64,000 nt of DNA from Rhodococcus sp. ARC_M6 (GTDB lineage Bacteria; Actinomycetota; Actinomycetes; Mycobacteriales; Mycobacteriaceae). The position numbers and the translations under genes are program-made. Under the pieces are notes generated by a model, which made no database searches, was not told the DNA's origin, and saw only the letters and a program-made list of their open reading frames with translations. Numbering within the stretch: position 1 is the first letter of the stretch; each line of letters opens with the position of its first letter. The stretch covers positions 1-64,000 of the forward strand of contig NZ_JALGQH010000003.1 in NCBI RefSeq assembly GCF_022810305.1, read 5' to 3'. Positions 25,432 through 64,000 of the stretch are shown here, piece by piece.

Positions 25432-25459
25432 TCGGAAATTGTACCGAGTGGAGAATTTG

Positions 25460-25921: not shown

Positions 25922-25948
25922 CTCTCCTGTACAAGAAAGTAGTCTCCT

Positions 25949-27121: not shown

Positions 27122-27130
27122 GTATCTGAC

Positions 27131-45489: not shown

Positions 45490-45513
45490 ATCTGACAGGA
45501 TGCACTGTCAGAT
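45490..45513. promoter_or_regulatory. perfect 9-bp palindromic operator upstream of P450
   Basis: ATCTGACAG and CTGTCAGAT are exact inverse arms with a 6-base spacer, 24 bases before the P450 ATG and 45 bases before the divergent TetR start. Position and symmetry point to the TetR binding site. Confidence 0.8.
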
Positions 45514-45536
45514 TGAAACGGGAGTTGAGGTTCATC

Positions 45537-46925: not shown

Positions 46926-46942
46926 GAAGCTGCTGGACTGAA

Positions 46943-48541
46943 CTACGTGGCAGTGGCCCGGAGTTCGAACTTGAGGACCTTGCCAGTCGGGGTGCGAGGA
47001 AGTTCCAGCGGGAAGACGATGTCGCGAGGCACCTTGTAGCCGGCCAGCAAGGAGCGGGTGTGCTCGACAAGTTCTTCAGCGGTAGCGGTCAAACCCTTGC
47101 CCAGAACCACAAATGCCTTGGGACGCTCACCCCACTTCTCGTCAGGGACACCGATCACGGCGACGTCGACCACTGCAGGATGGCTCATGATCGCCTGCTC
47201 CACCTCGACGGTAGAGATGTTCTCGCCGCCGGAGATGATGATGTCCTTCGCGCGGTCCTTGAGTTGGATGTATCCGTCGGGATGCATGACACCGAGATCG
47301 CCGGTGTGGAACCAGCCACCGGCAAAGGCCTGCGCAGTGGCGGCTTCGTCGCGGTAGTACCCGAGCATCACATTGTTGCCGCGCAGCATGATCTCGCCCA
47401 TGGCGACGCCGTCGGCGGGGACGTCGTTCATATCGGGATCGACGACGCGGGCGTTCTCGGCCTGCACCATCCCGACGCCCTGACGAGAGAGCAATGCGGC
47501 GCGCTCGGCGGGCGACTTCTCGTCCCAGGACTCTTGGTACTCACAGATCGTGTACGGCCCGTACACCTCTGTGAGTCCGTAGACATGGACGACGGTGATG
47601 CCGATTTCTTCGAGTTGACCGATGACTGTCGGCGACGGGGGAGCGCCCGCGGTGGTGATGCGCAGGGTGTTGACCTTGTGGGCCTGTTCCGCGCCGGCGA
47701 TCGTGGAGCAGACCGTCGGAGCCCCGCACAGATGTGTCACGCCGAGGTTGTCGATGGCGTCCCAGATGGCGTCGGCGCGGACAGCGCGCAAGCAGATGTG
47801 GGTACCGGCGGCCTGAGTGACGGCCCAGGGTGTGCACCAGCCGTTGCAGTGGAACATCGGCAGCGTCCACAGGTACTTCGTGGATCCGTCGAAGCCGTTG
47901 TGGAAGGTCTCGCCGAGGGAGTTGAGGTATGCCCCGCGGTGGGAGTACATGACGCCCTTGGGTTTTCCAGTGGTACCGGAGGTGTAATTGATGGCGATGC
48001 ACTGCTGTTCGTCGTCGACGCCCCAGTGCAGCGGCTGATCGCCGAGTGCTTCGCCCTCGGCCAACAGGTCTTCGTATTGTGCGGTGACGATTCCGGCAGG
48101 AACTTCGGGGGCGGGCACCGTCGAATCGGGGATCTCGATGATTTCGCGCAAGCTCGATACGTTTGTCTTGGAGGAGGCGACGGAACCGACAAATTCGGAG
48201 TCGACAAACAGGATCGTGGTGCCCGAGTGATCGAGGATGTATTCGAGTTCGGGGCCCGCCAGACGCGAATTGAGAGCGATGAGTACGCCGCCGGCCAGAG
48301 GGACGGCGAAGTGGGCAAACAGCATCTCGGGGATGTTCGGCGCCAGGTAGGCGATGCGATCACCGGGTTGGATGCGCCCACGCAGTACTCGCGCGAGCGT
48401 GGCTACCTCTTCGCCGAATTCGCGGTACGTGTACGTCCGGTCGCCATGGATGACGGCGGTGCGATCGGGGAACACCGATGCACTGCGTTCGAGAAAACGC
48501 AGCGGGCTGAGCGGGGTGTTATTGGCTGTCGGTGCAGACAC
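46943..48541 (-). CDS. acyl-CoA synthetase (AMP-forming)
   Basis: The 532-residue ANL-superfamily ligase activates a carboxylic acid with ATP and CoA. Signature motifs: NYTSGTTGKPKGVMYSH (P-loop), VYGLTEVYGPYT, the GGWFHTGDLGVMHPDGYIQL hinge, and the catalytic Lys in PRTPTGKVLK. It resembles medium/long-chain or FadD3/35-like actinobacterial ligases. The GTG at 48541 has GGAGG 5 bases upstream. It converges with the P450 gene (17-base gap); a functional link with the P450 is possible but unproven. Confidence 0.9.
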   Translation of the reverse strand: MSAPTANNTPLSPLRFLERSASVFPDRTAVIHGDRTYTYREFGEEVATLARVLRGRIQPGDRIAYLAPNIPEMLFAHFAVPLAGGVLIALNSRLAGPELEYILDHSGTTILFVDSEFVGSVASSKTNVSSLREIIEIPDSTVPAPEVPAGIVTAQYEDLLAEGEALGDQPLHWGVDDEQQCIAINYTSGTTGKPKGVMYSHRGAYLNSLGETFHNGFDGSTKYLWTLPMFHCNGWCTPWAVTQAAGTHICLRAVRADAIWDAIDNLGVTHLCGAPTVCSTIAGAEQAHKVNTLRITTAGAPPSPTVIGQLEEIGITVVHVYGLTEVYGPYTICEYQESWDEKSPAERAALLSRQGVGMVQAENARVVDPDMNDVPADGVAMGEIMLRGNNVMLGYYRDEAATAQAFAGGWFHTGDLGVMHPDGYIQLKDRAKDIIISGGENISTVEVEQAIMSHPAVVDVAVIGVPDEKWGERPKAFVVLGKGLTATAEELVEHTRSLLAGYKVPRDIVFPLELPRTPTGKVLKFELRATAT

Positions 48542-48700
48542 GGGTTCCTCCGAAGGTGACGTGGTCGGACGCTGTCGCCCACGCACCACTCTAAGTGTGA
48601 TCGGGACAACAAATGCTCGGGTTGCACGCTATTGTGCGGCCGACGAAGCCGCTACCCTCTGAAGTGGGTATGTGCCATCAACCCCCGACCAGGAGGGCAC

Positions 48701-49552: not shown

Positions 49553-49653
49553 GCAAGTCCCGGTAAGCGGAATCGGGCGGCCGCTGCGACTGAACAGCTT
49601 GATATGACGGACCTCACAATCGTACGAGCCGTACACGAGTGATGAGGGCATCG

Positions 49654-51081
49654 ATGCAGGATTTGTTCGACAACAGCGACATGACCGGCCTGGCCGAGGC
49701 GATCCGCAAGGGAGACGTATCGGCAAAGGAAGTGTTGGAGTTCAGTCTGAGCCGACTCGACGAGCGCAATCCTGCGGTCAACGCTGTGATCAGTGAATGC
49801 CGTGACGAAGCGCGCAACGAAGTGGCTGCAGGCCTGCCCGACGGGCCACTCCACGGCATCCCGTTCGTGATCAAGGACCTCGGCATGGACGTCGCGGGCC
49901 TGCCCAGCACGAACGGATCTCGATTGTTTGCTGACGCTGTGGCAGAAGAGGATTCCACGCTCGTCGAGAGGTACCGTCGCGCCGGGCTCGTCATTATCGG
50001 TAAGACCAACACTCCTGAGTTCGGTAAGAACGCAAGCACCGAACCGGCGCTGTTCGGCCCCACTCGTAACCCTTATGCACTTGATCGATCGCCTGGAGGA
50101 TCCTCGGGTGGTACGGCAGCGGCCGTTGCGGTGGGTATCGTGCCTGCCGGCCATGGCAGCGATGGCGGCGGATCGATCCGCATTCCGGCATCGGCCTGCG
50201 GCTTGGTCGGGCTCAAGCCCAGTCGCGGTCGAACGCCGACGGCGCCGGCACGAACTTTGTTCGCGTCGCCGATGGGCGTTCATCACGCGCTCACCCGAAG
50301 TGTGCGGGACACCGCGTTGCTCCTCGATCTTTCCGCCGGACCGACCGTGGGCGATCCGTACGTGATCCTGGCGCCGAAGCGGCCGTACGTCGAGGAAGTG
50401 GGCGCGGATCCCGGACGGTTGCGGATCGCTCTGAGTAACGCGTTGCCGGATGGCACCCCGGTGGACCCGGAGTGCGCGGCCGTCACCACGACCGTTGCCG
50501 GTCTGCTCGAAGAACTCGGTCACCATGTCACCGAAGGTGCCCCGGACTTTCCGCTCGATGCGCTCACTGCCGGGCTTTCCGTGTTGATGGGTATTCCCAT
50601 GACCATTGAGGTTGACGCACGACTCGAGGTCGTGAACCGCGCAATCCGCGACGACGACCTCGAGCCGATGGCTCGGATGATCTACGACCGCGCGAAGACC
50701 GAGAGTGCGACCAACGTCGTCAAAGCACTGCAGGAACTCGAGCGGGCGGCCCAGGTGATCGGCGCGTTCTTTGTCGATCACGATCTGTTGCTTACCCCGA
50801 CGATGGCTCGGCCGGCCGCACCGCTGGGTCTACTCGATACGGCGAATCCCATGTCGATCTGGGAGCACTCGGCCGGATACAGCGGCTTGACCAGTCCGTT
50901 CAACAGCTCTGGTCAGCCGGCGATTTCCTTGCCGATGGGTCATGACTCGGCCGGTGTTCCTATCGGCGTGCAGTTGGTTGCCGCGTTCGGGCGCGAAGAT
51001 TTGCTGATTCAGGTTGCGTCGCAACTCGAAACGGCACGTCCGTGGTCCATCGCCCCGGTATGGCCGCCGACCCAGGGATAA
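49654..51081 (+). CDS. amidase (amidase signature family)
   Basis: The 475-residue enzyme has the Ser-cisSer-Lys triad: Lys in VIKDLGMD, cis-Ser in [14 protein letters not shown], and the nucleophile in [13 protein letters not shown]. It hydrolyses aliphatic or aryl amides to acid and ammonia. The ATG at 49654 is preferred (GAGGGC 4 bases before) over the closely spaced upstream starts. A hairpin terminator follows. It is adjacent to, but separated by a terminator from, the large ligase-transporter cluster. Confidence 0.92.
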
Positions 51082-51136: not shown

Positions 51137-51339
51137 GTCGTGCGTCGAGCGGGGTCGACGGGGCTCCAGGAACTCAAAAGTATTTCTAATCGAAATATCC
51201 CATGTTGAACGACTCTTCTGCGTAGTATCCACAATGAGCGGTAGTGAGTAGTCGCCTCGAGTAGAACAAGTAGGCGTCGATCCGCATCGAGTTTTCGCCC
51301 AGCGCGACCGAACTGCGTTGTCACAGAAATGGATCAAGG

Positions 51340-54300
51340 ATGGTCGTTCAACCGGACATGGCACACCGGCGTTCTCTGGCCGTGGAAGAACTAACAGGCC
51401 CGGGGCAGTTGTTCGAGGTGGCTGACGAATCCGTGCGCGGCCATGTCATGCCGGTGTTCACTAACCGGGCGCACACGCTTCGTGAGATTCTGGCCGCATC
51501 GGTCCGGTACGGCGATGCCGAGTATCTGGTGTGTGACGAACTGCGGATCACGTTCGCCGATCATTTCTCTCGTGTGGCGTCACTAGCGGAGGAGTTGCGA
51601 CGCACGTACTCGATCGGCAAGGGCGACCGCGTGGCGATTCTGTCTGCGAACAACGCCCAGTGGATCATCACATTCTGGGCGGCGACGTCACTCGGGGCAA
51701 TCGTGGTCGGAATGAACGCGATGTGGTCCGCTCCCGAGATCGATTACGGCATGAAGCATTCCACTCCGAAACTTCTTGTCGCCGATGCAAAACGACGAGA
51801 ACTGCTCGGTGATGTGAACGTGCCGGTGCTGTCCGTCGAATCCGACGTACCGCGGTTGTCCACGGTGCACGTGGCCGCAGAACTGTCGACCGGCGCTATT
51901 GACGAGGACGATCCCGCCGTCATCTTGTATACCAGCGGCACAACCGGGAGACCGAAGGGTGCAACACACTCGCATCGGAACATCATCACGGCAAACGACT
52001 TTCACCGATTCAACGACGCGTTGGCAACGCATCTCGGAAGTCCACCCGCGGACCGGCGGTTTCTCCTGTCGAATCCGCTGTTCCACATCGCGTCACTGCA
52101 CAATCTCGCCGTTCCACGGTTGTCGATCGGTGACACCGCAGTCATCTATAGCGGGCGCTTCGAGATCGAACGTGTGCTGCGATTGATCGAGCGTGAGCAG
52201 GTCACCAACTGGGGAGCTGTGCCGACGATGGCGAATCGCCTTGTTTCGCATGGTGATCTGTCCCGATACGATCTGTCCTCACTCAAGACGATGTCACTGG
52301 GATCGGCGCCGTCGTCGACGGCGCTGAAGGAGAAGGTCCGCGAACTGTTACCGGTGGCAGGGCGTTCGTTGGGGACGACGTACGGGCTCACCGAGTCGTC
52401 CACAGGAGCCACCTTGGCGACAGCAGCCGATCTCGAGGACTACCCCGATTCCGTGGGTCGCCCCGTCGTCACGATGAGTGTCGAGATCCGGGACGACAAC
52501 GGTCATCGGCTCCCGGACGGTTACGAGGGCGAGATATGCCTGCGCGGGCCGCACGTGATGGTGGGCTACTGGAACAACGAATCCGCGACGTCGGCGGCAC
52601 TCGACGCGGAAGGATGGCTGCGCACCGGAGATCTGGGGTTCATGGCAGACGGTCACCTTCGCGTCAGCAGCCGTCGTTCCGATCTGATTCTGCGTGGTGG
52701 GGAGAACATCTACCCGGTCGAGGTCGAGAACGTTCTCAGTGAGCACCCGGCAGTGCAGGAATGCGCGGTAATCGGAATTCCCCAAGCGGACTACGGCGAA
52801 GAAGTGGCAGCAATTGTTGTTGTCGAGGAGCCGGGATCCGTCACGGAGGTAGAGCTGCTCGGGTATCTGCGGGAACGCCTCGCCAAGTACAAGGTTCCGT
52901 CGCGATGGCGACTGACAACAGAACCGTTACCGCGCAATGCAACCGGAAAAGTGGTACGCAAACAACTCGATGTCGACGCGGAACCGGCGATCGTCTCGGA
53001 GAATCGTCACGCCTGGACTCCCTTGTTGGCTGCACTCGATGAGCGCCGCCTGGCGGCTCGGGCAATGGGTGGGCCGGACAAGCTGCTGCGTTACCGACGA
53101 TTCGGCCGGGTGGATTCCCGAGAGCGCATAACAAAGCTGTTGGATCACGGCACTTTCCAGGAAATCGGCGTTCTCGCCGGCGACACATCGATACCGTCGG
53201 ATGGATTTGTTGCCGGATCCGGTCTTCTCGACGGTCGACCGGTTCTGGTCGGTTCGGAGGACTTCACGGTTGCCGGCGGATCGATCGGGACTGCGGCCGC
53301 AACCAAACGTGCCCGCATCGCGGAACTTGCCAAGCGGGAGCGTATTCCGTTGATCATGTTGTTGGAAGGCGCGGGGCATCGGGCCACCAATGCACTGCAC
53401 CCGCATCGGCCGGCACCCAACGATCTTCAAGCGATGGCGGAACTTTCAGGACTTGTTCCAACGGTCTCGGTAGTCTGTGGTCCGTCCGCCGGCCACGGTG
53501 CACTCACTGCACCTATGTCTGATTTTGTGGTGATGATCGAAGGTCACGGCGCACTGTTTACTGCGGGCCCACCATTGGTGGAGGCGTCGCTGGGCGAAAA
53601 GGTGACCAAGGAAGATCTTGGTGGGCCGCACGTGCACGCCGTGCAGAGTGGTGTCGCAGACAATGTGGCCGCAGACGTCGACTCTGCGCTCGCGATGGCT
53701 CGGCGCTACCTGTCGTATTTTCCGTCGAATGCGTGGAGTCGCACGGAACACTCGGATGCCGAAGCCCCCATTGCGGCACCACGGTCACTCGAAACTCTTC
53801 TCGACATCGTTCCGCCGAATCCTCGTATCCCGTATGACATGCGAGATGTGTTGTCAGTGATGGTGGACGAGGACAGTCTTTTCGAACTGCAGCCACACCA
53901 CGGTTCTTCCGTGATCACTGCACTGGCCAGGATGGGTGGTCGAGCAGTCGCCGTCGTAGCAAATCAGCCACTGGTACTAGCTGGTGCGCTCGACGTTGCA
54001 GCGGCGGAGAAGGCAACGCGGTTCATCGAGATGACCGGCGCTTTTCATCTGCCGTTGATCTTCCTGGCCGATAACCCGGGTGTTCTGGCGGGAAGTAAGT
54101 CCGAACGAGACGGGATACTTCGGGCGAGTGCTCGAATGTTTGCGGCTCAGCATCGGTCAACGGTGCCGAAAATGCATGTGACAGTGCGGAAAGCGTTCGG
54201 CTTCGGTGGATCCGTGATGGGGCAAAATGCTTTTGACCGTCAGACGATTTCACTCTCCTTTCCTGGCGGCATGTTGGGTGGAATTCCGGCCGCCGTGGGT

Positions 54301-54510
54301 GGGCGAACCGCGAAAGCCGACGAGCGCACACAGCGCGCACTGATCGAGAACGAGGCCGCAGGTCCGTGGCGTCTGGCAAGTTCGGTGACCTATGACGATG
54401 TGATTGACCCGCGCGAATTGCGCAATGCGCTTCTCGGTGCCCTGCGACTCTCAGGTGGCCGTGATTCGGAGCCCGCCAGCCCGGTCATGCGTACTGGATA
54501 TTTGCCCTGA
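51340..54510 (+). CDS. acyl-CoA ligase fused to a carboxyltransferase
   Basis: This 1056-residue protein has two enzymes. Residues ~30-545 are an ANL ligase: LYTSGTTGRPKGATHSH, TTYGLTESSTG, GWLRTGDLGF, and the catalytic Lys in PRNATGKVVRK. Residues ~580-1056 are an acyl-CoA carboxyltransferase with both crotonase-fold halves: GGSIGTAAATKRARIAELAK and LLEGAGHR in the first, FLADNPGVLAGSKSERDG and GGSVMGQNAFDR in the second. No biotin carboxylase or carrier is encoded in the window. The fusion implies that one acid is converted to its CoA ester and then carboxylated, decarboxylated or transcarboxylated. The frame is clean. The start is uncertain; AAGG touches the ATG, and ATG 51358 is an alternative. 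Confidence 0.88.
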   Translation: MVVQPDMAHRRSLAVEELTGPGQLFEVADESVRGHVMPVFTNRAHTLREILAASVRYGDAEYLVCDELRITFADHFSRVASLAEELRRTYSIGKGDRVAILSANNAQWIITFWAATSLGAIVVGMNAMWSAPEIDYGMKHSTPKLLVADAKRRELLGDVNVPVLSVESDVPRLSTVHVAAELSTGAIDEDDPAVILYTSGTTGRPKGATHSHRNIITANDFHRFNDALATHLGSPPADRRFLLSNPLFHIASLHNLAVPRLSIGDTAVIYSGRFEIERVLRLIEREQVTNWGAVPTMANRLVSHGDLSRYDLSSLKTMSLGSAPSSTALKEKVRELLPVAGRSLGTTYGLTESSTGATLATAADLEDYPDSVGRPVVTMSVEIRDDNGHRLPDGYEGEICLRGPHVMVGYWNNESATSAALDAEGWLRTGDLGFMADGHLRVSSRRSDLILRGGENIYPVEVENVLSEHPAVQECAVIGIPQADYGEEVAAIVVVEEPGSVTEVELLGYLRERLAKYKVPSRWRLTTEPLPRNATGKVVRKQLDVDAEPAIVSENRHAWTPLLAALDERRLAARAMGGPDKLLRYRRFGRVDSRERITKLLDHGTFQEIGVLAGDTSIPSDGFVAGSGLLDGRPVLVGSEDFTVAGGSIGTAAATKRARIAELAKRERIPLIMLLEGAGHRATNALHPHRPAPNDLQAMAELSGLVPTVSVVCGPSAGHGALTAPMSDFVVMIEGHGALFTAGPPLVEASLGEKVTKEDLGGPHVHAVQSGVADNVAADVDSALAMARRYLSYFPSNAWSRTEHSDAEAPIAAPRSLETLLDIVPPNPRIPYDMRDVLSVMVDEDSLFELQPHHGSSVITALARMGGRAVAVVANQPLVLAGALDVAAAEKATRFIEMTGAFHLPLIFLADNPGVLAGSKSERDGILRASARMFAAQHRSTVPKMHVTVRKAFGFGGSVMGQNAFDRQTISLSFPGGMLGGIPAAVGGRTAKADERTQRALIENEAAGPWRLASSVTYDDVIDPRELRNALLGALRLSGGRDSEPASPVMRTGYLP

Positions 54511-54543
54511 ACGTTTGTATTGCAGGAGAATTGGAGCAGTTTT

Positions 54544-55584
54544 GTGAGCCAGAGTTCAGTCGGTGTTGAAGAGTCCGATCCGGTGCAAACCTTTCGGAAT
54601 ATGTTCGGCAGCCGTCTGCGGATCCCGGTCATTGCAGCTCCGATGCTCAGGGTGAGCGGGATTGAACTTGTCTCGGCCGCCTGTGCCGCGGGAGTAGTCG
54701 GCGCCTTTCCGACGGCGAACGCTCGCACAGTGGAGGAACTCGATGCCTGGCTAACGATCTTCGACCGCGAGCAGGAGGAGAGCGGCGGAACAATCGCCCC
54801 GTATTGCCCCAACCTGATCATCAGGCAACCTCGACTGGCAGACGATGTTGCGTGTCTACTCCGACACCGGGTGGAATTGGTTATTGCGAGTGTGGGGTCT
54901 CCCGCGCCGATCATCGGTCCGCTTCACGATATCGGTGCCAAGGTCCTTGCCGACGTGGGGACTCTTCGTCATGCGGAGAAAGCAGTTGCGGCCGGAGCAG
55001 ACGGACTGGTGTTGTTGTCTGCGGGGGCCGGTGGTCAGACGGGTTGGATGAACCCGTTTGTCTTTGTTCGTACTGTTCGCGAATTATTCGATGGCACAGT
55101 AATTCTCGCCGGCGGCATCTCGGACGGGCACGCATTGTGGGCTGCGGAGGTGGCGGGATACGATGCGGCCTACATGGGCACTCGGTTCATTGCCACGGAC
55201 GAGAGCGCCGGTGCCCCGGCGTACAAGGATATGTTGGTCGCCAGCACTATGGACGATGTACTTCTGACCAACGCGTTCACCGGGTTGCGCACGAACATGC
55301 TCGAGCCGTCCATCCGAGCGCAGGGACTCGATCCTGGAAAATTGAACGAGCAGATCTCCGTGAAGGATTCGGCCGAACTGTTCGGGGCAAAGGCGCCGGC
55401 AGCGGGTCCGGTGCGATGGATCGATGTCTGGAGTGCCGGACATACGGTGTCGGGTGTGAAGCGGCGAGGGCCGGTATCGGACCTCGTCCGAGATACGCGG
55501 AACGAGTACCACAGTGCCCGTGCGAGAACCCGATCGATGCTCGAGACGCAGTCCAACGTGACTGTGTTGGAGGAACTTCAGTGA
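54544..55584 (+). CDS. nitronate monooxygenase family flavoprotein (NPD/FabK-like)
   Basis: The 346-residue TIM-barrel FMN protein has RIPVIAAPMLRVSG, the phosphate/FMN loop AAGADGLVLLSAGAGGQTG, and ILAGGISDGHALWAAEVAG followed by YMGTRFIATDES. Relatives oxidise nitronates or reduce enoyl thioesters (FabK), or act on CoA-bound catabolic intermediates. GTG 54544 has GGAG 7 bases upstream. The next gene overlaps its stop by 4 bases. With two CoA ligases around it, an acyl-CoA substrate is likely. Confidence 0.88.
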   Translation: MSQSSVGVEESDPVQTFRNMFGSRLRIPVIAAPMLRVSGIELVSAACAAGVVGAFPTANARTVEELDAWLTIFDREQEESGGTIAPYCPNLIIRQPRLADDVACLLRHRVELVIASVGSPAPIIGPLHDIGAKVLADVGTLRHAEKAVAAGADGLVLLSAGAGGQTGWMNPFVFVRTVRELFDGTVILAGGISDGHALWAAEVAGYDAAYMGTRFIATDESAGAPAYKDMLVASTMDDVLLTNAFTGLRTNMLEPSIRAQGLDPGKLNEQISVKDSAELFGAKAPAAGPVRWIDVWSAGHTVSGVKRRGPVSDLVRDTRNEYHSARARTRSMLETQSNVTVLEELQ

Positions 55585-57146
55585 TAACTGGAGGAAATCG
55601 AAATGCGGGGATCTTCGGTCCCGGACAGACGATGGGTTCACTGACGATTCGAGCGCTACGTCGATATCCGGAACGGCCGGCATTCTCCTGGGACGGCGGG
55701 ACGCTCTCGTATGCCGGTGCGGAAGACCTGATCGGACGCTATCAACATATACTGCAGCGCAGGGGATTAGGTCGAGGATCTACGCTCGCAATATTGGCCG
55801 GCAATCGCGCCGAAGCCTGGTGCATCGGTGCAGCCGCGCACGCTTCAGGAATCGCGACGTCATGGTTGCATCCGATGGGCTCGTTCGGCGATCAGATGTT
55901 CCAGATACGCGACGCCGAGGTAGACGGCTTGGTGGTCGACGAACGCCATCATGGTGAGCGTGCAGGGCAGCTGGCCGCCGTGTGCGTAGACGATGTCACC
56001 GCTGTTTTCAGTTTCAGCCCGTGCGACTTTGCCTGTGACCTGCAAGATTTGGCGAGTTCGGTAGGAAGTTCGCGGGCAGTCGACCTTGCCTCGCGATCGG
56101 ACATCGCAGTGATCGCATACACCGGCGGAACTACTGGCAAACCGAAAGGCGTGATGCGTCGTCATGCGTCTGCTGTCCGTGCGACGGCCGGCATATTGAG
56201 CGACTTCGAGATTCCGGACAACCCCCGTTACCTTTCGGTAGCGCCGTTGAGTCATGTCGGTGGGTCGAAAGTGTTGTCCACCTTCATTCGTGGTGGCAGC
56301 GTGCATCTGATCAACGGATTCACCCCGGAGCGTGTCTTCGCGGCGATAGAGCGTGAGCGATCGAACTTCACGCTCCTTGTGCCGTCAATGATTTACTCGA
56401 TGCTCGACGACCCTGCGATCGCCGGCGCGGATCTTTCTTCACTGGAGTTGATCTTGTACGGTGCATCGCCGATGTCACCGTCCCGGTTGATCGAGGGGCT
56501 GGATCGAGTGGGCCCGGTATTTTCGCAACTGTACGGACAGACCGAGTGTTATCCGATTGCACTACTGAAGAAGTCCGACCACGATCCGAGCGATCCGGAT
56601 CTGCTCTCGTCCTGCGGATTTCCGCTCAGTCCGTTCACGGTTTCGGTGCGGGACACCGAGGGGCGGGAGGTCCCCACGGGTGAACTCGGAGAAGTGTGTG
56701 TGCGCGACGGTGCGACCATGGATGGCTATTGGAAGAACGACGAGTTGACGGCAGAGACGCTCGTGGACGGTTGGTTGCACACCGGCGATATCGCCCGCGT
56801 CGATGATCGGGGATACCTGTACATCGTTGATCGCAAGAAGGACATGATCATCAGCGGTGGGTTCAATGTCTATCCCAAGGAAGTCGAGGATGCGTTGACT
56901 TCCCACCACGGCGTCTCCAGTGCGGCGGTGTACGGAACTCCGGACGACAAATGGGGTGAGGCTGTGACGGCGTCGGTAGTCCTACGGCCCGGCGTAATCG
57001 TGGATGAGTCCGAACTGGTGGCGTTGGTCAAGCAACGCAAAGGGTCGGTCCAAGCCCCGAAGCGGATTCACATTGTGGACAGCCTCCCGTTGACCGCGTT
57101 GGGCAAGGTGGATAAGAGGGCATTGCGAGATCAGTCAGGGTGCTGA
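55581..57146 (+). CDS. acyl-CoA synthetase (AMP-forming), second ligase of the cluster
   Basis: The 521-residue ANL ligase shows AYTGGTTGKPKGVMRRH (Gly replaces the usual Ser in TSGTTG), LYGQTECYPIAL, GWLHTGDIARVDDRGYLYIV, and the catalytic Lys in LTALGKVDKR. The GTG start overlaps the preceding stop (GTGA). It probably activates an acid related to, or derived from, the substrate of the fused ligase. The frame is open further upstream, but that part is antisense-like shadow of the flavoprotein gene. Confidence 0.9.
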   Translation: MITGGNRNAGIFGPGQTMGSLTIRALRRYPERPAFSWDGGTLSYAGAEDLIGRYQHILQRRGLGRGSTLAILAGNRAEAWCIGAAAHASGIATSWLHPMGSFGDQMFQIRDAEVDGLVVDERHHGERAGQLAAVCVDDVTAVFSFSPCDFACDLQDLASSVGSSRAVDLASRSDIAVIAYTGGTTGKPKGVMRRHASAVRATAGILSDFEIPDNPRYLSVAPLSHVGGSKVLSTFIRGGSVHLINGFTPERVFAAIERERSNFTLLVPSMIYSMLDDPAIAGADLSSLELILYGASPMSPSRLIEGLDRVGPVFSQLYGQTECYPIALLKKSDHDPSDPDLLSSCGFPLSPFTVSVRDTEGREVPTGELGEVCVRDGATMDGYWKNDELTAETLVDGWLHTGDIARVDDRGYLYIVDRKKDMIISGGFNVYPKEVEDALTSHHGVSSAAVYGTPDDKWGEAVTASVVLRPGVIVDESELVALVKQRKGSVQAPKRIHIVDSLPLTALGKVDKRALRDQSGC

Positions 57147-57241
57147 CTAGGCCCTTCGTCCCGAATTTCCGTCTCGTTGACCGGGATTCGAGGTTGGTGA
57201 ATCGCCGTTCTGGATCGAAACTCAAACTTAGTTCCACGAAA

Positions 57242-57264
57242 CGTATACCTAATAGGCATATACG
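57242..57264. promoter_or_regulatory. inverted repeat upstream of the ABC transporter genes
   Basis: CGTATA (57242-57247) and TATACG (57259-57264) flank an 11-base spacer containing CCTAATAGG. It lies in the 199-base gap before the substrate-binding protein gene and is a candidate site for the IclR regulator or promoter. Only 6-bp arms, so moderate support. Confidence 0.4.
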
Positions 57265-57345
57265 CGTTAGTCTGCCAAATAGACCTGAGCGGCTCTGTGC
57301 GTACGGGGTTTCTGATCCGTAGAGATCCACTTCGAGAGGAATTCG

Positions 57346-58926
57346 ATGACCGGAAAATGGAACGGTAGAGGCAAAGTTGCCGCCGTGGCGTTGGTGACTG
57401 CGCTGGCGGTTGCCGGCTGCGGCGGTGGTGGCGGAACAACCACGGCCGGCGGCTCGACTGCATCGGCCGCAGACATCGATCGCAGTGCCGTCCTTCGGGT
57501 GACGGCGGCGGCGCCGACTCGAAATCTGGACCCGTACCTGCAAGCAAGCTACGGCGGATGGGGTTATCTGACTCCGATGTTCGATCGTTTGACGATGGTC
57601 GACAAGGACGGCAACCTCGTTCCCGGACTTGCCAAGTCATGGGAGTTCGCCCCCGATGGCGCGTATCTCGAATTGAAACTGCGGGACGACGTCACGTTCC
57701 ATGACGGATCCAAGTTCGATGCCGCAGCTGTCGCCGCGAACTTCCAACGTGGAAAGACAATGGCCGGCAGCACAGTCGTGGCGGCTCTCGACGACATTGC
57801 GTCCGTCGACGTTGTCGATCCGACCACCGCACGCTTGAACCTGGTGCCGGGGTCCGGTGTGGAATTACCCGGATTGTTCAGTACCAACGTCGGTATGATG
57901 GTCAGTCCTAAGACTATCGAGGCAGGAACGGACATTCGAAATGACCCGGGCCAGAGTGGATCCGGACCGTATACCGTTAGCAAGTACGTACCGGAGGAGT
58001 CGCTCGAGGTTACTCGGGCGCAGGGCGATTACTGGGATCCTGCAGCTGGATTGCTCGGCGGAATCAGCTTCAAAACGATGCCTGACGCGACGACGCGTCT
58101 CAACGGTATGCAGACCGATGCAACCGACCTAAGTTGGGTGAGTTCTGCCAATGAGATCGTCCAAGCGCAGACCCTCGCGGACCGCAACGTCCTGGGTATC
58201 GACAAGGTGAAGTTCCGCAACGTGCTCGGTGTTTTCATGCGTTCGCGCGATGACCTCGCGAAACCTGAAGTGCGTCAAGCTGTTGCGCACGCCATCGATC
58301 CCGAGGCGATCAGTGCGCTGTTCTCGGGCACGTGTACTCCGTACCGTCAGATGTACCCCGAATCGAGTTGGGCAGCGGACCCGTCGTACAAGTACCCCTA
58401 CACCTTTGACGTGAACAAGGCCAAGAGCTTGGTCGAAGCGGCTGGGGGAGCCAAGATCAAGTTGACCTTCGGTGCAGGAACCAATACGGAGAAGCCTGCC
58501 AATGTGATTCAGTCATCCTTGACTGCAGCGGGATTCGATGCCGAGTTGGATCCGGTGCCGAACACGCAGAACGAGCCCGGCTACATTGCCGGAGCGTTCC
58601 AGTCGATGGTATCGAACAGTTTCAGCCCGAAGGTCGACCCGGCCGAGACCGTCAACACGTTCGTCGTGGGTCCGTACGACTTCGCCAACGGCAATCCCGA
58701 GATCGCTGCACTTGCCAAGAAGGCAGCCAACCCGACGTTGTCCCAGGACGAGCGGGGCACCATGTACCACGAGATCTGGTCGAAGACACTGGCTGAGGCC
58801 ATGTTCGTGCCCATCTGCAACCAGACGAATGCCACGATCTTCAGTGGCAAGGTTGTCAATGCCGACAACATCCCGTGGGTAGACACCGGAATCTTCGACC
58901 TTCGATACGTCGGATTGACCAAGTAG
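57346..58926 (+). CDS. ABC transporter substrate-binding lipoprotein (SBP_bac_5, Opp/Dpp type)
   Basis: The 526-residue lipoprotein has a signal peptide ending in a lipobox (VTALAVAGC, Cys near residue 25), a Gly-rich tether, and the family 5 extracytoplasmic fold (LVPGLAKSWEFAPDG, VTFHDGSKFDAAAV, EVRQAVAHAIDPEAI). It captures peptides or, in relatives, opines, nickel or small conjugates. GAGAGG precedes the ATG. Permeases and ATPases follow, separated by a 17-bp hairpin that would raise SBP levels over the rest. Confidence 0.93.
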   Translation: MTGKWNGRGKVAAVALVTALAVAGCGGGGGTTTAGGSTASAADIDRSAVLRVTAAAPTRNLDPYLQASYGGWGYLTPMFDRLTMVDKDGNLVPGLAKSWEFAPDGAYLELKLRDDVTFHDGSKFDAAAVAANFQRGKTMAGSTVVAALDDIASVDVVDPTTARLNLVPGSGVELPGLFSTNVGMMVSPKTIEAGTDIRNDPGQSGSGPYTVSKYVPEESLEVTRAQGDYWDPAAGLLGGISFKTMPDATTRLNGMQTDATDLSWVSSANEIVQAQTLADRNVLGIDKVKFRNVLGVFMRSRDDLAKPEVRQAVAHAIDPEAISALFSGTCTPYRQMYPESSWAADPSYKYPYTFDVNKAKSLVEAAGGAKIKLTFGAGTNTEKPANVIQSSLTAAGFDAELDPVPNTQNEPGYIAGAFQSMVSNSFSPKVDPAETVNTFVVGPYDFANGNPEIAALAKKAANPTLSQDERGTMYHEIWSKTLAEAMFVPICNQTNATIFSGKVVNADNIPWVDTGIFDLRYVGLTK

Positions 58927-58960
58927 AACTGTTGAATTCAGATCGTTCTCGATGAAGACC

Positions 58961-59008
58961 GGTTCGCTTCCGGGTACGTGCAATCTGCACGTACCCGGAA
59001 GCGGAACC
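58961..59008 (+). terminator. 17-bp perfect intra-operon hairpin (attenuator)
   Basis: GCTTCCGGGTACGTGCA (58966-58982) and TGCACGTACCCGGAAGC (58986-59002) pair exactly around ATC, and GGTTC/GGAACC extends the stem with one bulge. No T tract follows. It lies between the binding protein and permease genes, a usual place for partial termination or mRNA stabilisation. Confidence 0.8.
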
Positions 59009-59048
59009 GCCGACACGGACCGGCTGTAAGCGCCGGTGAGGGGTGCTT

Positions 59049-59990
59049 ATGTTGCGTTATGCCGGGCGACGGCTGCTGGCGGCTGTGCCGCTTCTGTTGA
59101 TCGTGCCCTTGATGATCTTCTTGTTGATCGATCTGTCGCCCGGAGATCCGGCGGTAATTCTCGCCGGAGAGAATCCGACGCCCGAGCGGCTGGCTGAGAT
59201 CCGTACGTCACTTCATTTGGACGACAACATCTTCCTGCGTTATCTCCGATGGGTCGGGGGTGTGCTGCAAGGAGATTTGGGAACGTCGTTCCTCTCCGAC
59301 CAGTCGGTTACGGATCTGATACTCCGGAGGATGGCGACAACGCTGTCGCTGGTCATCTTCACAATGGTGCTTGCGGTGACGGTCGGCGTGGTCCTCGGCG
59401 TTGTCGCATCGCTGCATCCCGGCGGAATCGTCGACCGTATGGTCAACGTCGTGGCATCCATCGCGATTGCCATTCCGGCCTTCTGGTTCGGCTTGGTATT
59501 GGTATCCGTCTTTGCCGTAACGAATCAGATCTTTCCGGCCTTCGGTTACGCACCGCTGTCCGATGGCTTTGTTCCTTGGATTCAGCACCTGATTTTGCCC
59601 GGTACTGCCCTGGCCTTGCTGCCTGCCGCGGAAGTGACACTTCAATTACGCTCGTCGCTGGGACAAGTCCTGAAGAGCGACTACATTCTCAACGCGGAGG
59701 CGAAGGGCCTTAGTCGCCCCAGCGTCGTCTTCAAACATGGACTCAAGAACGCGTGTATCCCGGTGGTCACCGTGCTTGGTTTCCGCGTCTCCGAAGTGCT
59801 GGGTGGAGCAGTGACCATCGAAATCATCTATGGCATGCCAGGTCTCGGAAGTCTAGCGGTGGACAGCGTCCAGAACCGAGATATTCCGGTGCTACTCGGA
59901 TTCGTGCTCTTCACGACCGTGGTGGTCGTGGTCGTGAATCTGCTTGTCGACATTTCCTATGGCTACTTCAACCCTAAGGTTCGCGCATGA
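59049..59990 (+). CDS. ABC transporter permease, DppB/OppB type
   Basis: The 313-residue inner-membrane protein has 6 helices and the DppB signatures LLIDLSPGDPAVILAG at its N-terminus and the EAA-like loop YILNAEAKGLSRPSVVFKHG. It pairs with the next gene. GAGGGG 5 bases upstream favours ATG 59049 over GTG 59043. The stop overlaps the next start by 4 bases. Confidence 0.93.
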   Translation: MLRYAGRRLLAAVPLLLIVPLMIFLLIDLSPGDPAVILAGENPTPERLAEIRTSLHLDDNIFLRYLRWVGGVLQGDLGTSFLSDQSVTDLILRRMATTLSLVIFTMVLAVTVGVVLGVVASLHPGGIVDRMVNVVASIAIAIPAFWFGLVLVSVFAVTNQIFPAFGYAPLSDGFVPWIQHLILPGTALALLPAAEVTLQLRSSLGQVLKSDYILNAEAKGLSRPSVVFKHGLKNACIPVVTVLGFRVSEVLGGAVTIEIIYGMPGLGSLAVDSVQNRDIPVLLGFVLFTTVVVVVVNLLVDISYGYFNPKVRA

Positions 59991-60874
59991 CTGACCCTGA
60001 GGCACTTACGGAGAGCGCTACGACGAAGCGTTCCAGTCGCAATCGCGGGCTGAAACTTCTACTGAAGAAGCCGGTTACGCTGGTGGCAGGTGTCTTTATT
60101 CTGCTGCTGGTGCTCATGGCTGTTTTTGCCCCGATCCTGGCTCCGCACGATCCGTACTTGCAGGAAGTTGTCAACCGACTGCAGCCGCCGAGCGCCGATC
60201 ATCTCTTGGGAACCGACGACTACGGGCGAGATGTGCTGAGCAGATTGATCTATGGTGCTCGGATCTCCCTGACAGCATCCCTCCAAGCTGTGAGTGTCGC
60301 ACTGATTCTGGGGCTTCCGCTGGGCGTTATGGCGGGCTATCGAGGTGGCTGGGTTGATTCCGTGATCACTCGAGTGATGGACGCGTTGATGAGTGCCCCG
60401 TCGCTCGTACTCGCAATTACGATCGTTGCGGTTCTCGGATCCGGAATCACCAATGCGATGCTCGCCATCGGATTGGTGATGGCGCCAAGATTCTTCCGTG
60501 TCGCAAGAGCTTCCACCATGGATGTGCGCCAAGAGACCTATATCGAGGCCGCAATCGCACTGGGGTGTTTGCCGATCAGGACAATTGTCCGCCATATCCT
60601 CCCGAATGTCTTGCCGCCTGTCGTGCTGGTCATCTCGGTGTCGCTCGGCGCAGCCGTAGCGGCTGAAGCGAGCTTGAGTTTCCTCGGTCTCGGGGCAAAG
60701 GCCCCGGCCGCGAGTTGGGGTTCGATGCTCAGTACCGCGGCGTCGAATATGCAGATTGCGCCATACCTGGTCTGGCCGCCCGGCGTGATGATCTTTCTGA
60801 CCGTCCTGTCCTTCACCTACCTGGGCGACGGTGTTCGTCGATCCCTTCTACGGAGTCGCAATGGTGACAATTAG
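59987..60874 (+). CDS. ABC transporter permease, DppC/OppC type
   Basis: The 295-residue protein has an N-terminal helix, the DppC segment FAPILAPHDPYLQEVVNRLQ, HLLGTDDYGRDVLSRLIYGA, and the EAA loop TYIEAAIALGCLPIRTIVRH. It forms the second half of the membrane channel. It overlaps both neighbours, so the transporter genes are translationally coupled. Confidence 0.93.
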   Translation: MTDPEALTESATTKRSSRNRGLKLLLKKPVTLVAGVFILLLVLMAVFAPILAPHDPYLQEVVNRLQPPSADHLLGTDDYGRDVLSRLIYGARISLTASLQAVSVALILGLPLGVMAGYRGGWVDSVITRVMDALMSAPSLVLAITIVAVLGSGITNAMLAIGLVMAPRFFRVARASTMDVRQETYIEAAIALGCLPIRTIVRHILPNVLPPVVLVISVSLGAAVAAEASLSFLGLGAKAPAASWGSMLSTAASNMQIAPYLVWPPGVMIFLTVLSFTYLGDGVRRSLLRSRNGDN

Positions 60875-61910
60875 TGATGACACCCGCACATCAGCAGGGC
60901 TCGGAACGAAAAGTGAACCGCTTCTACGGGTTCGAGATCTGACGATCGAGTTTCCGAGTGCAGGCGGATGGCAAACTACGGTCGACGGCGTCTCGTTCGA
61001 CGTCGGCGCCGGAGAATCCGTGGCGCTGGTGGGTGAATCCGGATCCGGGAAGACTGTTTCGTCGCTGGCGGTGATGGGATTGACCGCGGCAACCGGCGGC
61101 CGGATTGCGAGAGGGTCCATAGAATTCGACGGACGAGATCTGACCAAGGTTCACGAGCGTGAGTGGCGAAAGCTGCGCGGTAGGGGAATGGGCATGATCT
61201 TCCAGCAGCCCATTCGTAGTCTCAATCCTGCCTATACGGTCGGCGATCAGATCGCGGAATCCGTTCGCAAGCATCTGGGTTTGGATCGCAAGGCTGCTAT
61301 GGCGAGGGCAGTGGAGATGCTCGAACTGGTACAGATTCCCCGAGCCAAGGAGCGGGTGACCGAGTACCCGCATGCGTTCAGTGGTGGCATGTGCCAGCGA
61401 GTGATGATCGCAATGGTGATGGCATGCAATCCGCGGTTGCTGATTGCCGACGAACCCACCACCGCGCTCGATGTGACCGTACAAGCGAAAATCCTCGATC
61501 TGCTGCGAGATCTGCAGGAGCAGACGGGAGTGGCGTTACTCTTCGTCAGTCACGATCTTGCTGTGGTTGCGGAGCTGTGCGAGCGTGTTGTGGTCATGTA
61601 TGCCGGCGAGATCGCGGAAAATGCGGCTGCAGAAGAAGTTTTCTTCCGGCCACAGCATCCCTACACTTCTGGGCTCCTTGCGTCGATACCCCAGCCTGGA
61701 CTGAACGCGGATCGCAGACTGGTTGCGATTCCCGGAGGAATCCCCGCAGCCGCAGATTGGCCGACGGGTTGCCGTTTCGCGCCGAGATGCGGACATGTCA
61801 CTCCGGGAGTCTGCGACGTGGGGCATCCACCGATGGCGAGTGTTCCCACCGGAGAAGCACGATGCCTGCGTGTCCAGGATCTCGATCTGCAAGGAGTGAG
61901 TGTGCGATGA
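60861..61910 (+). CDS. ABC transporter ATP-binding protein, DppD/OppD type
   Basis: The 349-residue ATPase has Walker A GESGSGKT, the Q-loop MIFQQPIRSLNPAYTVG, signature FSGGMCQRVMIAMVM, Walker B LLIADEPTTALDVTV and the Opp-type C-terminal Cys cluster (GCRFAPRCGHVTPGVCDVG), which in related proteins binds an iron-sulphur cluster. ATG 60861 lies inside the permease gene with GGAG 5 bases upstream. It overlaps the next gene by 4 bases. Confidence 0.93.
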   Translation: MVTISDDTRTSAGLGTKSEPLLRVRDLTIEFPSAGGWQTTVDGVSFDVGAGESVALVGESGSGKTVSSLAVMGLTAATGGRIARGSIEFDGRDLTKVHEREWRKLRGRGMGMIFQQPIRSLNPAYTVGDQIAESVRKHLGLDRKAAMARAVEMLELVQIPRAKERVTEYPHAFSGGMCQRVMIAMVMACNPRLLIADEPTTALDVTVQAKILDLLRDLQEQTGVALLFVSHDLAVVAELCERVVVMYAGEIAENAAAEEVFFRPQHPYTSGLLASIPQPGLNADRRLVAIPGGIPAAADWPTGCRFAPRCGHVTPGVCDVGHPPMASVPTGEARCLRVQDLDLQGVSVR

Positions 61911-62746
61911 GTCTTCTCGAAGTTTCGAATGTCTCGAAATCGTTCTCGTCCGGACGCGACTTCCTTGGGCGTCGCACGAAGTGGTCCCATGCGGTCAAGG
62001 ATGTCAGCTTCACCCTCGAGGCCGGCGAATGTCTTGCAGTCGTGGGGGAGTCGGGCGCAGGTAAATCGACGGTCGGCCGCATTGCACTCCGGTTGATCGA
62101 ACCCGATACCGGCTCGATTACGTTTGACGGCGTCGACGTTCGGGCGGCCAAGCCGGCTGAACTACGCAAGATGCGTCGTGGGATGCAGATGATTTTCCAG
62201 GATCCGCACAGTTCACTCAATCCACGAATGACAGTGGTGGATGCAGTAATCGAACCGCTTGTCGTCCATACCGACATGGACCGGGCTGCGCGCGAGAAGC
62301 TGGCGACGCAGATGTTGGGCAAAGTCGGTATCGGCTCACGCTATTTCGGTAGATATCCAGCGGAATTGTCGGGTGGGCAGCTTCAGCGCGTGGCTATTGC
62401 GCGTGCATTGACGTTGAATCCCAAGATGATCGTCTGCGATGAGCCCGTTGCAGCACTAGATGTTTCGGTTCGTGCCCAGGTGCTCAATCTCCTGCGAGAC
62501 CTTCAGGAGGAACTAGGACTTGCCTATCTCTTCGTGTGCCACGACTTGGCATTGATCGAAGTCATCGCGGACCGTGTACTGGTGATGGCGCGCGGCGAGG
62601 TGGTCGAGAGTGGGCCGGTGGCAGACATCTTCCGGAATCCGCAGCAGGAGTACACCCGGTCCCTGCTCGAAGCGATCCCCGTACCGGTGCCACGTTCGGC
62701 GCGCGAACGGGACTTCGGCGTGGTTCCTGTGGAAACCGTGGGATGA
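61907..62746 (+). CDS. ABC transporter ATP-binding protein, DppF/OppF type
   Basis: The 279-residue ATPase has Walker A GESGAGKS, MIFQDPHSSLNPRMTV, the signature LSGGQLQRVAIARAL, and Walker B MIVCDEPVAALDVSV. It lacks the C-terminal Cys cluster. It completes the five-gene importer. The frame is open upstream to 61391, but that region is the coding strand of the preceding ATPase in another frame. Confidence 0.92.
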   Translation: MSLLEVSNVSKSFSSGRDFLGRRTKWSHAVKDVSFTLEAGECLAVVGESGAGKSTVGRIALRLIEPDTGSITFDGVDVRAAKPAELRKMRRGMQMIFQDPHSSLNPRMTVVDAVIEPLVVHTDMDRAAREKLATQMLGKVGIGSRYFGRYPAELSGGQLQRVAIARALTLNPKMIVCDEPVAALDVSVRAQVLNLLRDLQEELGLAYLFVCHDLALIEVIADRVLVMARGEVVESGPVADIFRNPQQEYTRSLLEAIPVPVPRSARERDFGVVPVETVG

Positions 62747-62756
62747 CGGGGATCTG

Positions 62757-63470
62757 ATGAACTCGGCACCTAATGCAGTCACGCCAGAGCAGTCCCGAAC
62801 GGTCCTGAGGGCCACGGATGCTGGTGATTTCTTGATGAGCGACTACCTGGGAGGGCATTCGGACGGCTCGGACGACGGTGGCTTTCAGGCCTATCTCGTC
62901 GGGCAGAAAGCGCCGGTACTTCGGCCGCACTACCACGAGGTCGATCAATTTCAGGTTGTATTGGACGGTGACGGCCGCTTGGGTAGACACGCAATAGGCT
63001 CGGGCACGGTGCATTACAGCGATGCGTACACGGTGTACGGCCCGATCTTCGCCGACGGCCCGGATGGTCTGTCGTACTTCACCCTGCGACTCGATCCTGC
63101 CGTCGGACTGAACTACATGCCCGAGTCGCGAGTTAAGGGTGAGACTCGTGCCGGTGAGCATTTCACCTGCAGCGTTGAGGAGAAGTTCAGTGGTACAGGT
63201 GAGTTGAATCTACTGGCCCGCACTCGTCGTGGTGCTTCGGCATTCGGTGTCGCGCTTGTCCCGGGCGTGGCGCTAGCGGCCGAGGCGTTGCGTCCGTGTG
63301 AGGGCCGAGGATACGTTGTGGTGCTCTCCGGTACAGCCGACCTGGGTGGTCGATCACTGCCGACCGGAAGCCTGATCCCGTTCGAGACCGCGCTGGATGT
63401 GAAAGGCGTTACCGCACAATCCGAACAGGTCCGTCTGGCGATAGTCGCATTTTCGACGCAAGTCGACTGA
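62757..63470 (+). CDS. cupin-fold protein of the transporter cluster
   Basis: The 237-residue protein appears bicupin-like: the first half has RPHYHEVDQFQVVLDGDGRL (metal-type His/Glu set) and GTVHYSDAYTVYGPI; the second half (LRPCEGRGYVVVLSGTADLG) looks metal-free. Cupins of this sort act as dioxygenases, isomerases or sugar/acid-binding proteins. It starts 10 bases after the last ATPase and is probably the final gene of the operon. Substrate unknown; homogentisate-dioxygenase-like chemistry is possible but unsupported. Confidence 0.75.
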   Translation: MNSAPNAVTPEQSRTVLRATDAGDFLMSDYLGGHSDGSDDGGFQAYLVGQKAPVLRPHYHEVDQFQVVLDGDGRLGRHAIGSGTVHYSDAYTVYGPIFADGPDGLSYFTLRLDPAVGLNYMPESRVKGETRAGEHFTCSVEEKFSGTGELNLLARTRRGASAFGVALVPGVALAAEALRPCEGRGYVVVLSGTADLGGRSLPTGSLIPFETALDVKGVTAQSEQVRLAIVAFSTQVD

Positions 63471-63477
63471 CGACTGC

Positions 63478-64000
63478 TCAAGGCGTCCCACCGAGCTGGT
63501 CTGCGGCAGTTCGGAGTAACTGGCCGTAATGAGCGAAGTAGTCTTCCGTGACTCGTGTTTCGGGCCCGCTGATCACTACCGCGCCGATCGGAGAGCCTGA
63601 TACATCGAGGATCGCTGAAGCGAGACTGGTTGATCCCTGCTGTACTGCACCGGCGCTGACGGACCATCCGCGAGAGCGAATCTCTTGGTATTCCTGAGGA
63701 CTCAGCAACAAATGTGGTTCGCTCGAACCGTTTTCGCGTTCTTGCTGTGTGAGATAGGCGTGGATCACGCGTCCGGAAGCGCTGGTCTCGGGCGCGTGTA
63801 CCTGTCCTACCTTCAGCGCTGTACGGACCATCTGGTTGCCGTCGACTACGCCGAGCACGATCATGTGTTCGTTCTCTGCAACGGCGAGATGAACGCTCTC
63901 TCCGGTTGCATTGCGGAGCTCTGTCATGACCGGTTGTGCGCGTGCTGTAAGTGACGAGCCGTTGTAGACCTGGCCGGCGACGACGACGCAGCGAGTGGAG
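63478..64000 (-). CDS. IclR family transcriptional regulator (5' end beyond window)
   Basis: The frame is open from the stop at 63478 to base 64000, so the gene continues off the window; an internal ATG at 63927 is not its start. LRNATGESVHLAVAENEHMI, KVGQVHAPETSASGRVIHAY and GWSVSAGAVQQGSTSLASAI are the IclR effector-binding domain; the N-terminal HTH lies outside. It converges on the cupin gene (7-base gap) and is the likely regulator of the ligase-transporter cluster, responding to an organic acid. Confidence 0.9.
   Translation of the reverse strand, partial: STRCVVVAGQVYNGSSLTARAQPVMTELRNATGESVHLAVAENEHMIVLGVVDGNQMVRTALKVGQVHAPETSASGRVIHAYLTQQERENGSSEPHLLLSPQEYQEIRSRGWSVSAGAVQQGSTSLASAILDVSGSPIGAVVISGPETRVTEDYFAHYGQLLRTAADQLGGTP

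Follow-up and report, generated by a model that had tools for sequence, protein, structure and literature searches.

Which acid do the genes at the end of this stretch of Rhodococcus sp. ARC_M6 DNA handle, and what do they do with it? The window analysed here is a stretch of 64,000 nucleotides (positions 1 to 64,000 of contig NZ_JALGQH010000003.1, C85 of genome G000); features within it are given by window position, and those past its end carry the prefix C85. A sequence-only reading had described, at 51340..63470, a block for the import, activation and transformation of an unknown organic acid, with no described pathway to match it. Import, activation and transformation of an acid are backed by the gene content and by co-conservation in the genus and in another family. 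The second part of that description is countered by related islands lying among steroid-type genes in other genomes, and by the ligase, dehydrogenase, aldolase and DUF35 protein, which all match steroid side-chain catabolism. Because of these matches, we consider it likely that the locus imports a carboxylic acid of steroid type, which may arrive as an amide, activates it with coenzyme A (CoA) and removes its side chain.

The block makes up the front of a longer conserved gene island. Its boundaries had been drawn too narrowly, as an amidase gene upstream (49639..51081) and about 8.6 kb past the window end (to C85:72591) belong to it. Gene content, conserved order, family matches, a sequence motif and co-occurrence across genomes are direct observations.

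Steroid-type enzymes of the island

The gene at 51340..54510 (+ strand) encodes a 1056-residue fusion of a steroid-24-oyl-CoA synthetase-like ligase and a PccB-type carboxyltransferase. The ligase half scored 838.3 bits with the CasG model NF052580, above the curated cut-off of 750, and the other half carries an acyl-CoA carboxylase domain (Carboxyl_trans, 316 bits, residues 589-1037). Instead of standing alone at ~548 residues, as is typical of CasG, the ligase was fused in all five genomes of the genus having it.

Past the window end, the island continues with a class II aldolase (C85:64289-65083), a steroid-type pair of acyl-CoA dehydrogenases (C85:65108-66307 and 66347-67489), two CaiB-type CoA-transferases (C85:67500-69958), a FAS1-dehydratase-like and a MaoC-like protein (C85:69971-70970), a thiolase-fold, Sal-type aldolase (C85:70970-72172) and a DUF35 protein of 139 residues (C85:72172-72591; L013:10173-10589). 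A PadR gene on the opposite strand and then a third ligase gene follow. The nearest structures to the larger acyl-CoA dehydrogenase were 4X28 and 6WY8, which we take to be steroid dehydrogenases. The Sal-type aldolase scored 456 bits with CtSal (9MYR) versus 128 with TcLtp2 (6OK1), and its neighbour, the DUF35 protein, scored 111 bits with the CtShy partner domain versus 39 with ChsH2. The YDCY motif is present in the aldolase (IYDCYTI, residues 297-303), and a hand-counted alignment placed Gln at the positions of CtSal Gln161, Gln347 and Gln352. Catalysis in CtSal relies on the Cys and the first Tyr of this motif (PMC12329534, available excerpt). The same contig encodes, some 28 to 36 kb beyond the window end (C85:91686-99671, equal to L162:10187-18172), a cytochrome P450, a DUF35 protein with two Ltp-like thiolases, and a steroid 3-ketoacyl-CoA thiolase that scored 717 bits with NF005889 (cut-off 515); this is probably the sterol locus of the host.

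Ligand, enzyme activities and carboxylation site are proposed from homology and context, as follows. The importer, with its lipoprotein binding protein, would take the acid into the cell, and the upstream amidase may release it from an amide. The CasG-like ligase half would then form the acyl-CoA, from which the heteromeric steroid-type dehydrogenase and the MaoC-type hydratases could yield a beta-hydroxyacyl-CoA. Cleavage of the C22-C23 bond by the Sal-type aldolase and its DUF35 partner would give an aldehyde and acetyl-CoA. One of the CoA esters might be carboxylated by the carboxyltransferase half together with a biotin carboxylase from another locus, and the CaiB pair may shift CoA among acids.

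The carboxyltransferase was nearest to propionyl-CoA carboxylase (289 bits), ahead of methylcrotonyl- (190) and geranyl-CoA carboxylase (169). Around KAFGFG-S-VMG its motif departs from propionyl-CoA carboxylase chains, Gly and Ser replacing their Tyr and Asp/Ile. We presume these positions to have a role in the acyl pocket, which the change may widen. In a special case of the steroid proposal, this enzyme would carboxylate C-28 of side chains branched at C24 (phytosterol type), making branched sterol acids, and not bile acids, the substrates of the island. Such a carboxylation, followed by hydration and retro-aldol cleavage, has been described (PMC3546705; PMC6678751, in the excerpt available), and the Gly and Ser residues would suit it, as would the gathering of ligase, dehydrogenase, carboxyltransferase, hydratase-like proteins and aldolase in one island. 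The order of the carboxylase scores argues the other way, as does the reported entry of sterols via Mce4 and not via Opp/Dpp importers (PMC6498646, PMC6678751, excerpts of both). Assigning the step here is also bold because one review credits methylcrotonyl-CoA carboxylase with it (PMC10049677, excerpt). We regard this special case as unlikely, with an appreciable chance of being right. Its fuller version is quite doubtful: a dedicated fusion enzyme would both attach CoA to C24-branched steroid acids and carboxylate them, its substrates arriving as peptide-like amides through an Opp/Dpp importer. If it held, a gene for C-28 carboxylation and a new class of steroid-acid importer would share one island.

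Pairing of the ligase with the carboxyltransferase recurs. Among the 120 matches listed out of 1599 in the protein database, five proteins at 83-97% identity covered the whole fusion. The two proteins are fused in the five Rhodococcus genomes, and adjacent but unfused in G1029, in G907 and in three genomes of genus g42; the pair at the g42 loci is 45-47% identical, and no importer was found in the 19-20 kb read at each. Looser relatives of the carboxyltransferase (50-55%) were found at E 1e-100 in 34 of 394 genomes of the class, the own fusion included, and 23 of the 34 belong to genus g29, probably Mycobacterium. At several of eight such loci read, P450- and alcohol dehydrogenase-like genes were recognised nearby by eye. 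At three g29 loci (L121, L122, L123), a stand-alone carboxyltransferase (~51%) lies beside lookalikes of a P450, an alcohol dehydrogenase and a ligase, again judged by eye. The two CasG-like paralogues of the own genome (on C79 and C94) might belong to named steroid clusters; five of their neighbours gave no NCBIfam match when scanned at E 1e-60.

The importer and its distribution

Downstream of the fusion gene lies an importer of Opp/Dpp type with all its parts and intact motifs on the + strand: a family-5 substrate-binding lipoprotein (57346..58926; SBP_bac_5, 180 bits; signal sequence, cysteine at residue 25), permeases B (59043..59990; BPD_transp_1) and C (59987..60874; BPD_transp_1 and OppC_N), and ATPases D (60861..61910; ABC_tran and oligo_HPY) and F (61907..62746; ABC_tran). 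Walker A, signature and Walker B are present in both ATPases; the oligo_HPY tail of F fell slightly under the cut-off (26.1 of 27.1).

These genes could encode a standard importer of peptides or metals with no link to the enzymes beyond adjacency. Its components find their best named relatives among systems for nickel, glutathione and peptides, and a gap of 199 bases with a conserved promoter-like region parts it from the enzymes. However, the importer fell into no characterised peptide or nickel subtype, as all listed NCBIfam equivalog models for these substrates stayed under their cut-offs (for permease C and the ATPases, among the best 25 models). The association of transporter and enzymes, on which the sequence-only reading had leaned, was also upheld in a survey of 28 genomes of the genus. 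With thresholds of E 1e-100 for the binding protein and the aldolase and E 1e-250 for the fusion, all three were found in the same five genomes (G000, G003, G004, G008 and G011), at 91-100% identity for the binding protein and 94-100% for the aldolase. The four genomes besides the own one hold binding-protein orthologues of 91-95%, and none was found in the other 23. Outside the own genome 20 kb were read in each, and as far as read, the gene order was equal in all five, apart from the second ligase.

The same linkage was seen in another family. In G907, permeases B (73%) and C (74%) and ATPases D (71%) and F (79%) have orthologues, the overall range being 70-79%, and the binding protein is 54% identical. 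These genes are followed by a MmgE/PrpD protein, a CasG-like ligase (47%) and the carboxyltransferase (66%). Directly ahead of this importer block is an operon encoding a lipid-transfer aldolase along with dehydrogenases, and a Sal module lies ~53 kb off. With co-occurrence in the genus and this adjacency of orthologous permeases and ATPases to the ligase and carboxyltransferase, an importer that is only a bystander appears very improbable.

Less close islands support the steroid proposal. G1029 holds an unfused ligase (58%; CasG model, 775 bits) and carboxyltransferase (65%) overlapping by 4 bases, along with a Sal module, an Opp/Dpp importer (25-48%), a PadR gene (64%), an NF005889 thiolase (573 bits, cut-off 515) and further steroid-type genes. 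In Nocardioides sp. YIM 152315, importer genes (29-54%), a lone carboxyltransferase (64%) and an aldolase (80%) accompany the full run of dehydrogenase, CaiB, hydratase, aldolase and DUF35 genes. The latter genome also encodes HsaA (604 bits, cut-off 450) and an NF005889 thiolase (577 bits); its HsaC- and HsaD-like proteins were under cut-off.

Importer and carboxyltransferase went together in the six genomes searched for the latter. Three of them (G121, G907 and G1029) have it at 64-67%, each with an Opp/Dpp importer in the same region. In the others (G882, G906 and G945) the best carboxyltransferases reached at most 40%, and in the 6-20 kb read there was no such binding protein or permease and one ATPase (35%, in G906). 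At four g29 loci the dehydrogenase-hydratase-aldolase-DUF35 run is present, but CaiB, carboxyltransferase, binding protein and permeases are missing, and three of these loci show one distant ATPase (31%); four other g29 loci have the aldolase and DUF35 protein only, with a distant dehydrogenase at three. At E 1e-130, the aldolase was found in eight of 396 genomes of a phylum sample, namely the own genome and seven of g29.

Enzymes from steroid side-chain families might also serve to degrade a bulky acid outside the steroids, for instance a terpenoid one. The lookalikes of P450, alcohol dehydrogenase and ligase beside carboxyltransferase relatives in other actinobacteria, recognised by eye, would fit such a substrate, as would the G907 ligase, which stayed under the CasG cut-off (646 of 750 bits). 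However, models named for steroid enzymes scored above their cut-offs in the own genome, in Nocardioides and in G1029, with only a general lipid-transfer model passing in G907. Likewise, the aldolase is nearest to CtSal, and ~28 kb beyond the window end we found a locus with a steroid thiolase. A non-steroid substrate is in our view rather unlikely.

A further hint of a steroid connection comes from the nearest binding-protein paralogue in the own genome (58%; G000:C117:88610-90169, L150). It adjoins an ipdAB-like pair (best match 6CO6, presumably IpdAB, 353 bits), an IpdC-like NPD protein and a sulfatase. A second Opp/Dpp importer is partly encoded there too, and its substrates may be ring fragments or sulfated steroids. 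In a limited search of the open-licence literature, no report linking Opp/Dpp importers to steroids was seen among the papers listed.

Layout, promoter regions and accessory genes

The genes named by the sequence-only reading are all present, and their Pfam families agree except for the cupin. Several details of its layout needed revision. Of the ten units placed on one strand, nine are on the + strand; the tenth, an IclR-family regulator (63478..64000, IclR_C 89 bits), is on the - strand, convergent as stated, with its 5' part clipped by the window end. Overlaps of 4 bases, taken to be the rule, occur at three of the eight same-strand junctions with the start codons chosen here; one overlaps by 14 bases, and the remaining four are gaps of 10, 33, 116 and 199 bases. 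Because the 199-base gap 5' of the binding-protein gene carries the conserved promoter-like region, the block likely consists of at least two transcription units.

A 19-bp box, GTATNNCTAATNGNNATAY, was found upstream of the fusion gene and of the binding-protein gene in all five island-bearing Rhodococcus genomes and nowhere else there. In the window, the copy on the fusion side is an operator-like inverted repeat at 51180..51198 (+ strand, GTATTTCTAATCGAAATAT), and the second, on the importer side, lies at 57243..57261 (+ strand, GTATACCTAATAGGCATAT). Allowing one mismatch at most, 0.01 copies would be expected in the window, for a pattern derived from these same sites. Between two conserved blocks, picked after they had been seen, an equal match arose in none of 2000 shuffles. 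When whole promoters were compared, an equally good match arose in 110 of 500 shuffles, which is not significant, and the box is therefore only suggestive of shared regulation. No copy was found in the third promoter region (IclR/class II aldolase) or in G907 and G1029. With this region lacking a copy and the 110 equal shuffles, a single regulon was not established. The IclR gene is kept in place in the four other genomes, and two IclR genes are found in the Nocardioides island.

The amidase-signature amidase (49639..51081, + strand; Pfam Amidase, 323 bits; GGSSGG motif at residue 153) ends 258 bp upstream of the fusion gene and is predicted to act in deconjugation or amide hydrolysis. Orthologues are in place in the four other Rhodococcus genomes (71% in Rhodococcus sp. 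IEGM 1379, L026:4488-5927, and 95-97% in the others), and a 53% relative lies in the Nocardioides island. The earlier suggestion that a conjugate enters the cell gains from this presence in five of five Rhodococcus and in Nocardioides, and loses from the lack of a close amidase in G907 and G1029. G907 has a separate amidase-family gene directly after the DUF35 gene of its Sal module (L136:15198-16268, Pfam 193 bits).

Behind the fusion gene come an NPD/FabK-like flavoprotein, distantly of IpdC type (54544..55584, + strand; NMO, 75 bits), and a second acyl-CoA ligase, FadD8-like but under cut-off (55581..57146, + strand). The best own-genome paralogue of the flavoprotein (31%) adjoins ipdAB-like genes. 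At this identity to the own IpdC-like protein, and with Pfam scores of 75 versus 257 bits, orthology with IpdC was ruled out; IpdC itself, a flavoprotein resembling FabK, acts in the breakdown of steroid rings (PMC5380842, excerpt). The second ligase, counted earlier as part of the block, is accessory: it is intact in G000 and G003, broken in G004 (Rhodococcus sp. IEGM 1379, L026:10921-11714) and absent from G008 and G011, so that an essential role is ruled out.

The double-cupin protein of a rare family (62757..63470, + strand) gave no Pfam or NCBIfam match. Its predicted structure (pLDDT, the predicted local distance difference test, 92.1) is a double cupin, and the best structural matches are mostly cupins of varied functions. 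A word-limited search of ~5.8 billion proteins returned 39 homologues (90% clusters), and a 47% relative lies in the Nocardioides island.

Several observations weigh against the uptake and side-chain removal of a steroid acid. Two other ligases of the own genome outscored the fusion with the CasG model (967 and 974 bits), the G907 ligase stayed under its cut-off, and the MaoC-like hydratase was under the Pfam cut-off (25.7 of 27 bits). The DUF35 gene is present beside the aldolase, but its product lacks, in the region concerned, the zinc-finger cysteines (C3H1 or C4) seen in CtShy and ChsH2, its sole Cys lying near the C-terminus. No biotin carboxylase was recognised among the scanned cluster genes, the rest of the genome not being searched. 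The NPD flavoprotein, class II aldolase and cupin are given no step in the proposed pathway. Identity of the own binding protein to its counterparts in Nocardioides and G1029 is low (25-29%), a search at E 1e-80 found no match to the amidase in either G907 or G1029, and the whole-promoter shuffles must be added to this list.

Upstream of the block, a P450 and a ligase lie on opposite strands at 45513-48589; G004 (96%) and, over the extent read, G011 (92%) likewise have this ligase ahead of the block. A further run at 25439-28264 comprises a MaoC-like and two acyl-CoA dehydrogenase-like proteins, all recognised by eye. Scans of the window with tRNA and Rfam models gave no matches. A plasmid search returned six records, with pieces covering 1-2% of the query and no related cluster, and a search of viral contigs returned one pattern stretch and no relative.

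Comparison with known systems

With its five genes, family-5 binding protein, two BPD permeases and two ATPases, the importer resembles Opp/Dpp (PepT) ATP-binding cassette importers; unlike these, it passes no listed peptide or nickel model and is linked to steroid-acid enzymes. The carboxyltransferase has the complete domain of propionyl-/acyl-CoA carboxylase beta subunits, from which it differs in its fusion to a CoA ligase, in altered residues near the acyl site and in the absence of a recognised biotin carboxylase gene alongside. Its tie to steroid-acid activation would allow carboxylation in steroid side-chain breakdown to be tested at the level of the gene.

Another counterpart is the operon ending in the gene for KstR3, which we take to be a regulator of TetR type. 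This HBC operon of Mycolicibacterium neoaurum, atf1-chsH4-chsE6-kstR3, likewise pairs a Sal-type aldolase with a stand-alone DUF35 protein, of 138 residues as compared with 139 here, and Atf1 and ChsH4 act on sterol side chains (PMC10398937, available excerpt). It has four genes, the excerpt naming no importer, carboxyltransferase or CaiB pair, and KstR3 stands where the island has IclR and PadR (PMC10398937).

In the proteobacterial Sal/Shy bile-acid module, the YDCY aldolase, its DUF35 partner and the conserved catalytic residues are as in the island. The latter differs in its separate DUF35 and hydratase-like proteins, in a DUF35 protein without zinc-finger cysteines, and in the addition of CaiB genes, carboxyltransferase and importer (PMC12329534, same excerpt as above).

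The cas (cholate) cluster of Rhodococcus jostii RHA1 shares with the island a CasG-type ligase, dehydrogenases, hydratases and an actinobacterial host. In contrast to the island, RHA1 is reported to lack Sal, its thiolase CasB handling the C5 side chain, and no carboxyltransferase was found in the available portion of the cas gene table (PMC8399759, excerpt). For uptake, RHA1 has the porin RjpA for cholate and CamM and CamABCD for cholate metabolites (PMC8399759). Mce4 is reported not to serve cholate entry in Rhodococcus (PMC6678751, PMC8399759), and the plasma-membrane system for cholic acid entry in R. jostii was given as unidentified in a 2019 review (PMC6678751). A cholate-growing R. ruber was described as having no genes like CamABCD and CamM (PMC6498646), these statements being those of the excerpts available. 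The island offers a testable candidate for a bile-acid importer, including in R. globerulus NBRC 14531 (locus L030), and it points to a route through a Sal-type aldolase in Rhodococcus alongside the thiolase route of RHA1.

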